DNA from: Methanosphaera stadtmanae
Lineage (GTDB): Archaea; Methanobacteriota; Methanobacteria; Methanobacteriales; Methanobacteriaceae
NCBI GenBank assembly: GCA_015062815.1
Contig: SUTP01000010.1
Location: 1-34,333 of the forward strand
Direction of reading: 5' to 3'
DNA length: 34,333 nt
The notes under the pieces are model-generated. The model was not told where the DNA came from. It was given only the letters and a program-made list of their open reading frames with translations, and ran no database searches. Each line of letters starts with the position of its first letter. Within the stretch, counting starts at the first letter, position 1. Made by a program: the position numbers and the translations under genes. Shown here piece after piece: positions 27,758-29,716 of this stretch.

Positions 27758-29437
27758 TTATTTGTTATAATCTTTTCGATGAGGGTTAAAGTTTTTACTA
27801 GCACGATTATTCTTTTTGAATCGTTTTTTATTTTTTATTCTCTTTTTATTATTTTTATTTTCTTTATCTCTAGGACGTGCAGGTTCTAGGTGTAATCTCT
27901 TATTTTCTATATAGGTATCTGCCATAAATCTATAAAAATCTGATGCATGTTCTTTTGCAATTTCTACAAATGAAAAATTATCAAATATATCTATATTTCC
28001 AACTTGCCTTCCATTAAGACCTGTTTTTTCATAAATCGAATTTAGAATAACTGTTATATTGATTCCTTGTTTTCGACCTAAACTCATGAAAAAACGAACA
28101 AAACCATCATGAGCTTCAGTATTTCCAAATTCTTCTTCATTTGGTTTATTTTCACGCATTATTTCTTTGAGTAATGTAGCAGCGATATCGATGGAAGTAT
28201 AATTTTCTTCAACCAATTTTTCTATAACATATATTTCTTTTGAAATATCTTCGGTTTCAATTTTATTTTTTAATTGATCAATAAAATTATCTTTTTTAAC
28301 TTCATTAACAGTACTTAAAGAAGGAATTGGAGCTTGTTCTATTTTTGTTTTAGCATATCTTTGTATATCTCTTAATTGGTAGATTTCTCGTCCTGAAACA
28401 AAACTATAAGCTTTTCCAGTTTTTCCTGCTCTTCCAGTACGTCCTATACGATGTACGTAGTATTCATTATCATTAGGAATGTCATAATTGAATACGGCTT
28501 CAACTCCACTTACATCGATACCTCGAGCTGCAACATCAGTAGCTACCAATATATCTATATTTCCATTTTTAAACTTATGCATCACTCTATCTCTTTGATT
28601 TTGGGTTAAATCACCATGTAATCCATCAGCTAAATAACCTCTTATTTGTAAATGACTTACAAGTTTGTCTACTTTTCGTTTAGTATTACAAAATACTAAT
28701 GACAATTCAAAATGATTTAAATCTAAAATTCTAGAAAGTAATTCTAGTTTCATATCTTCTTTTACTTCAAAATACTTTTGTTCAACATCAGGAGTTGTTA
28801 ATTCATGATGAGTTATTTTAACAACTTCAGGGTTATTTTGGTATCTTCTTGTTAATTGCATTATTTCTTTAGGTAATGTGGCTGAAAATAATAAGAATTG
28901 TCTTTCATAAGGTATATCTTCTAAAATGTATTCTATATCTTCTCTAAAACCCATATCTAACATTTCATCAGCTTCATCTAATATAACTGTAGAAACTTGA
29001 CTTAAATCAATAGTTTTTCTATCAATATGGTCCATTACTCTTCCAGGAGTTCCTATAATTATTTGTACTCCTTTAGTTAAGGCTTTTATTTGTCTTTCTA
29101 TAGGTTGTCCACCATAAATTGGTATAACATTTATGTTGTGAAGATAAGCTGATAATTTTCTTAGTTCTTCTGCGACTTGTATTGCTAATTCTCTAGTTGG
29201 ACATAGGATAATAGCTTGCAAATTTTTATTTTTACTATTTATGTTTTGTAATAGGGGTATTCCAAATGCAGCTGTTTTACCTGTTCCTGTTTGGGCTTGT
29301 CCTATCACGTCTTTATGTGCTAATATTTTTGGTATGGATAATTTTTGTATAGGTGTAGCTTCTTCAAATCCCATATCCGCTACTGCTTTTTGTATTTCTG
29401 GTGAAATATTCAAGTCTTTAAAATCTGATTGTTCCAT
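27758..29437 (-). CDS. DEAD-box RNA helicase with DbpA-type RNA-binding domain
   Basis: 559 residues from the ATG at 29437, which follows AAGAGGAC; in-frame residues further upstream lack a ribosome site and run through a repeat. The Q motif (FEEATPIQKLSIP), motif I AQTGTGKT, DEAD, SAT, and motif VI HRIGRTGRAGKTG are all present. The C-terminal part contains a DbpA RNA-binding fold (FVRFFMSLGRKQGINITVILN...NIDIFDNFSFVEIA) and a very basic Lys/Arg/Asn tail that adds RNA affinity. This layout is that of bacterial DeaD/CsdA helicases, which act in ribosome assembly and cold adaptation, so ancestral transfer from bacteria is possible. Two dyad repeats at the promoter suggest dedicated regulation. 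Confidence 0.95.
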   Translation of the reverse strand: MEQSDFKDLNISPEIQKAVADMGFEEATPIQKLSIPKILAHKDVIGQAQTGTGKTAAFGIPLLQNINSKNKNLQAIILCPTRELAIQVAEELRKLSAYLHNINVIPIYGGQPIERQIKALTKGVQIIIGTPGRVMDHIDRKTIDLSQVSTVILDEADEMLDMGFREDIEYILEDIPYERQFLLFSATLPKEIMQLTRRYQNNPEVVKITHHELTTPDVEQKYFEVKEDMKLELLSRILDLNHFELSLVFCNTKRKVDKLVSHLQIRGYLADGLHGDLTQNQRDRVMHKFKNGNIDILVATDVAARGIDVSGVEAVFNYDIPNDNEYYVHRIGRTGRAGKTGKAYSFVSGREIYQLRDIQRYAKTKIEQAPIPSLSTVNEVKKDNFIDQLKNKIETEDISKEIYVIEKLVEENYTSIDIAATLLKEIMRENKPNEEEFGNTEAHDGFVRFFMSLGRKQGINITVILNSIYEKTGLNGRQVGNIDIFDNFSFVEIAKEHASDFYRFMADTYIENKRLHLEPARPRDKENKNNKKRIKNKKRFKKNNRASKNFNPHRKDYNK

Positions 29438-29463
29438 AGTATGTCCTCTTTCTATATAATATA

Positions 29464-29500
29464 ATACTGGCGTATTTTTTTTAATTTGATACTGGCGTAT
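29464..29500 (-). promoter_or_regulatory. Two 12-base dyad repeats at the helicase promoter
   Basis: ATACTGGCGTAT occurs at 29464-29475 and exactly again at 29489-29500, a period of 25 bases. Each copy is a dyad, ATAC-N4-GTAT, and GC-rich for this DNA. They flank the AT tract CAAATTAAAAAAA, a TATA candidate, and end 27 bases before the start codon. This looks like a paired operator for a dimeric regulator. Confidence 0.6.
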
Positions 29501-29683
29501 CATTATTTTCATTTTTTCTAAAATATTGGGATATTTTTAATAATAATTTTCATGGTAATATTTCTAATTTTTTTAGTAATTAAAGTTATTGTAATAAGTT
29601 TAAATTCATCGAATAAGGTATAAATTAATTAAAAATAGTTTGTTTAAAAAATTAGATGTGGTTTAAAAATATTTTATAAATTT

Positions 29684-29716
29684 AAAAAAAAATAAGAGAG
29701 TTAATCTTTCTTATTT
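29684..29716 (-). terminator. Hairpin plus T-tract terminator after lonB
   Basis: AAATAAGA (29690-29697) pairs with TCTTATTT (29709-29716) around an 11-base loop; the stem overlaps the lonB stop codon. On the minus strand the right arm runs into T9. This resembles a bacterial-style intrinsic terminator. Confidence 0.5.

Follow-up and report, generated by a model that had tools for sequence, protein, structure and literature searches.

A conserved GCC[A/C]-loop hairpin as a candidate cis-regulatory RNA element in the leader of a Methanosphaera DEAD-box helicase gene

Two identical 12-mers upstream of a DEAD-box RNA helicase gene of Methanosphaera stadtmanae are very probably two copies of a single RNA hairpin element in the helicase leader. 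Comparative sequence evidence from the genus suggests that this hairpin is best explained as a gene-specific cis-regulatory element. The full explanation, in which a protein binds the leader hairpin, with the helicase itself as the likeliest binder, and helicase production is thereby put under feedback, is assigned a probability of roughly 0.6. In these gut methanogens a single helicase gene is preceded by a minimal hairpin for which the comparative support is strong, and the same gene encodes a candidate reader. To our knowledge, archaea have few cis-regulatory RNA elements on record, and little is known of how the levels of DEAD-box helicases are set.

The helicase gene and its two 12-mers

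The helicase gene (P0001, 559 aa) occupies 27758..29437 on the minus strand of the window, that is, the whole 34,333-nucleotide stretch of DNA analysed here. Its product contains DEAD, Helicase_C, DeaD dimerization and DbpA RNA-binding domains. The DbpA-type RNA-binding domain (PF03880, residues 448–518; 27884..28096, minus strand) scores 70.2 bits against a cut-off of 25.6 and is the candidate hairpin reader; its relatives in the PDB are 5b88, 2g0c and 3moj. The ribosome-binding site, recognized from sequence as AGAGGAC, lies at 29443..29449 (minus strand). A PRPP synthase gene lies downstream, and lonB lies upstream on the helicase strand. The helicase gene is separated from lonB by a 277-nt intergenic region (29438..29714, minus strand), which should contain both promoter and leader. 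At its lonB end (29684–29715 of the window, minus strand), AATAAGA..TCTTATT and the T-run behind it resemble a weak terminator, one not listed by a strict terminator scan; if real, it would make the helicase gene a separate transcription unit.

The 12-mer ATACTGGCGTAT is present as two exact copies, at 29464–29475 and 29489–29500, with the 25-bp start-to-start distance that an earlier note on this DNA had given, and the draft genome (1,996,276 bases) contains it only at these two sites. On the minus (helicase) strand each copy is ATAC-GCCA-GTAT; the copies read ATACGCCAGTAT at -63 and -38, so that the start codon follows 63 and 38 nt downstream, and they adjoin the ribosome-binding site. The loose dyad ATACNNNNGTAT is present at 67 genome-wide sites vs 55 for a reversed control pattern; this is about background frequency, and the GC-rich GCCA/TGGC centre is therefore the unusual, informative part, much as the earlier note had remarked. 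A regulon of ATAC-N4-GTAT sites is rejected as background; the exact 12-mer is unique to the helicase leader.

Read on the helicase strand, both copies are predicted to fold. The proximal hairpin, AATAC-GCCA-GTATT (29463..29476, minus strand), has a 5-bp stem and a GCCA loop (29468–29471), with a predicted fold of -2.7 kcal/mol at 37 C and a pairing probability of 0.94. The distal hairpin, TGATAC-GCCA-GTATCA (29487..29502, minus strand), has a 6-bp stem around its GCCA loop (29493–29496), a predicted fold of -6.1 kcal/mol at 37 C and a pairing probability of 0.99 within the leader. Only the window's species has the second, tandem copy; the other Methanosphaera that carry the element have one. 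A third hairpin, AAAATAT-CCCA-ATATTTT, lies upstream of both GCCA hairpins (minus strand, around 29520–29537), some 100 nt ahead of the helicase start, and may be a degenerate copy.

The hairpins are presumably transcribed as part of the helicase mRNA. A 7-species clade conserves an AT-rich, TATA-like block some 100 nt ahead of the hairpin, which is what would be expected if the hairpin were part of the transcript. The proposal that the two copies flank the best TATA candidate was not confirmed: the spacer between them (29477–29486) lies outside the five best upstream TATA-like boxes, and such calls are unreliable in DNA as A+T-rich as this.

Conservation and covariation in Methanosphaera

The helicase orthologue is found in all 20 Methanosphaera genomes, the 19 others being 68–84% identical to that of the window, and it is preceded by the hairpin in 16 of the 20, always in the same orientation (sense strand). 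The conserved element consists of a 5–9-bp stem and a GCC[A/C] loop; its variants include AAUAC-GCCA-GUAUU, AACAC-GCCC-GUGUU, GACAC-GCCC-GUGUC and GAUAAUAU-GCCA-AUAUUAUC, among others. Its distance to the start codon ranges from 38 to 169 nt among species. Upstream of the helicase gene, the hairpin is decayed in two genomes (L005 and L019) and absent in two (L021 and L022). The check in relatives that the earlier note suggested thus came out in favour of the element; the opposite outcome named there, a lack of conservation with many unrelated copies, did not occur.

Chance can hardly account for this pattern: 17 hairpins were observed against 0.055 expected from shuffles, with 0 on the reverse strand, and a 400-kb sample of genome G017 yielded 0.0024 such hairpins per 320 nt. 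A chance repeat, e.g. a small functionless tandem duplication, would agree with the restriction of the second copy to the window's species, but conservation throughout the genus, together with covariation, leaves it a negligible probability. A chance origin is refuted for the element itself; the extra copy alone may have arisen in this way.

The stem covaries. In the stem alignment, 88% of cells are paired; shuffles give 79%, and slid controls never exceed 52%. Changes on both sides are seen in 18 cells and in 5 of 8 stem pairs, and the covariation score was reached by 0 of 500 shuffles. The compensatory exchanges are A-U/G-C, U-A/C-G and C-G/U-A. The helicase tree, itself only partly resolved, places the double changes in separate lineages: U-A became C-G in one 7-species clade, C-G became U-A in the L016/L019 clade, and A-U became G-C in L003 and inside the 7-species clade. 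Pairing also extends to flanking stem bases, G-U wobbles included (L012, L013). The loop, by comparison, is fixed: G13 and C14 are invariant and C15 is nearly so, with GCC present everywhere except in one decayed copy. Fixed loop, covarying stem, strict orientation and restriction to one gene together point to an RNA hairpin rather than paired DNA operators; within this set the constant sense orientation is weak and not independent evidence, because the element is inherited.

A DNA operator, on which a dimeric transcription factor would bind the dyad at the promoter, is accordingly improbable on this evidence. The element is indeed a dyad, a promoter position is possible, and joint changes in the two arms would also be expected if the half-sites had co-evolved with a regulator; however, the half-sites that such a factor would read vary while the centre is fixed, and this conserved GCC[A/C] centre is non-palindromic and always on the sense strand. 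Further points against an operator are the outward continuation of pairing with G-U wobbles, the variable distance to the start codon, the single target gene per genome and the lack of a regulator gene among the identified neighbours of the helicase gene. The more specific idea of two dimer sites enclosing the TATA box is not supported, given the single copy elsewhere, the 38–169-nt spacing, the oriented non-palindromic loop and the covarying stem. Because no species but that of the window carries the duplicate, the phasing of two dimers cannot be a conserved function. The earlier note had also mentioned an RNA-level autoregulation signal, and as a reading this fits the covarying stem, the fixed and oriented loop and the single gene well.

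An RNA thermometer or structural attenuator would also be an RNA element, in which the AU-rich stem senses temperature and needs no dedicated protein. Cold regulation is common among DEAD helicases, and predicted stability rises strongly on cooling; the proximal hairpin, for example, reaches -5.7 kcal/mol at 15 C as against -2.7 kcal/mol at 37 C. Conservation of the loop sequence would nevertheless be unneeded for such a device, the stem leaves the ribosome-binding site uncovered, and intact hairpins vary from -2.5 to -9.4 kcal/mol among species; only about one chance in ten is allowed for it. A common helix that would sequester the ribosome-binding site was likewise considered and rejected as inconsistent among species. 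In the clade of L004, L012, L013, L014, L017 and L018, AAGTCCA is kept about 8 nt downstream of the hairpin; in that one clade, and not generally, this sequence would be able to pair either with the ribosome-binding site or with AUGGA. L005 has damage in the hairpin as well as in the AAGUCC downstream of it; its close relative L004 has both intact.

Restriction to one gene and one genus

Searches beyond the helicase leader yielded matches attributed to chance. Over the 20 genomes, AYACGCCMGTRT has 26 matches, 16 at the helicase gene and 10 within coding frames of unrelated genes; as candidates for further genes with the hairpin, these ten exact matches in open coding frames were set aside as chance. 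A covariance model of the hairpin ranks helicase leaders at the top in most Methanosphaera genomes. Its additional hits that were inspected nearly all fall in predicted frames, overlap such frames or have no GCC loop, and they were judged chance, as was an intergenic match in the window's own genome (L111; loop TCTC, 25.7 bits). Among 139 genomes of the family, the model scores only in Methanosphaera, apart from one marginal match outside, and the GCC[A/C] hairpin was not found in the helicase leaders of the other genera examined. Rfam gave no family matching the hairpins, merely two weak sub-threshold matches, neither at the hairpins. As far as sampled, the element appears to be restricted to one gene in one genus.

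The DbpA-type domain has a similar distribution. In the family sample, PF03880 is on the helicase in 10 of 10 Methanosphaera genomes and in 0 of 50 genomes of 16 other genera, and the nearest orthologues in other genera of the family stop near residue 430. Many public relatives spanning this part of the protein (27884–28096) belong to gut and other bacteria; a gain of the domain by Methanosphaera through lateral transfer is possible.

Candidate readers and proposed mechanism

Autogenous leader elements are known for RNA-binding proteins, including ribosomal proteins and RNase E (the rne 5'UTR). The Methanosphaera element would resemble them as a structured 5' leader element at one gene for an RNA-binding protein, and feedback would be the simplest reading; it differs in being archaeal and a very small hairpin, with no sequence relation known.

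Autoregulation by the helicase is the leading candidate mechanism suggested by the distribution of the parts. The presence of the hairpin at one gene only suggests that this gene's own product reads it, and the restriction of both DbpA domain and hairpin to Methanosphaera in the family sample points the same way; counted at genus level, this co-occurrence is in effect one or two evolutionary events. The helicase mRNA would contain the hairpin, with its 5–9-bp stem and GCC[A/C] loop, in its 5' leader, as a tandem pair in the window's species. A protein would bind the loop; the likeliest is the helicase, by means of its DbpA-type RNA-binding domain, and helicase binding would act as negative feedback, either on translation or on the stability of the mRNA. 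Helicase synthesis would then rise when the protein is engaged elsewhere, as in the cold or in ribosome assembly.

The helicase as hairpin reader is a tentative assignment, put at somewhat below even odds. Four Methanosphaera with the domain have no intact hairpin (L021 and L022 are without one, and those of L005 and L019 are decayed), so the domain does not require the hairpin. An evolutionary version, in which the Methanosphaera helicase acquired the DbpA domain and its leader then evolved a GCC[A/C] hairpin read by that domain, giving a genus-specific autogenous loop, is a doubtful proposition at present. If true, it would mean a direct feedback switch from a helicase to its own mRNA in an archaeon and a new loop specificity for a DbpA-type domain. 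A single purified domain and a single short RNA would suffice for a direct test of autoregulation.

Loop reading by a helicase domain is plausible from known systems: the DbpA-type domain of YxiN recognizes the loop UGUUC of 23S hairpin 92, and Hera reads adjacent single-stranded RNA (PMC3695512). The Methanosphaera helicase has a domain of the same family, PF03880, and YxiN reads a hairpin loop; the loops, however, differ (UGUUC in hairpin 92 vs GCC[A/C] in the leader), as do the stems, which is why the specificity would be new. The hairpin 92 region of two Methanosphaera 23S sequences is GCUGUUCGCCCAUUAAAG; mimicry of hairpin 92 by the leader was rejected, as merely CGCCC is common, in one clade and at a different structural place. 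CrhR, a DEAD-box helicase of Synechocystis, autoregulates, partly post-transcriptionally (PMC3485376). Control of a DEAD-box helicase over its own expression is the shared feature, though only a proposed one in the present case, whereas CrhR is cyanobacterial and the portion of that report available to us describes no such hairpin.

The hairpin might instead be read by a different protein, e.g. a TRAM RNA chaperone or an RNase, that sets mRNA stability or translation. In M. maripaludis, the mRNA of the DEAD helicase MMP0457 has a 223-nt 5'UTR bound by TRAM0076, and this mRNA rises on TRAM0076 deletion (PMC6705878). The likeness lies in a long leader, predicted in the present case, on the DEAD helicase mRNA of an archaeon, and in an RNA-binding protein that binds there, proposed in the present case; a constant loop on a changing stem also suggests some loop-specific protein. 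TRAM0076, in what is available of that report, is without clear sequence specificity, but the loop here is fixed and limited to one gene; in the same portion no conserved hairpin is reported for the MMP0457 5'UTR, and its reader protein is a different one (PMC6705878). A reader other than the helicase is unlikely on this balance, with about a quarter of the weight, and the helicase is kept as the candidate.

Other helicase leaders contain structures of their own. In L033, L039 and L067–L071, which belong to other genera of the family, the sequence upstream of the helicase start has a conserved AU-rich structure of a different kind, TTGATTATTT..GCTAATTTT..AAAAT..GC..AAATAATTAA, and in these leaders extra pairing of TTATC with GATAA beside the ribosome-binding site is predicted; the structure, though conserved, showed no double-sided covariation in 5 sequences. 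Among bacterial relatives with the DbpA domain, a Spirosoma hairpin match was discarded as lying inside an N-terminal coding extension, and GAACG-GCCA-CGTTC hairpins, present in some Hymenobacter leaders, were judged unrelated. In Hymenobacter (L190, L191, L192 and L198, also L175 and L181), a conserved leader of about 190 nt precedes the related helicase gene, starting directly behind a promoter-like box, TTTGCA, and including GAACG-GCCA-CGTTC in some species; it may be a further example of a helicase leader element.
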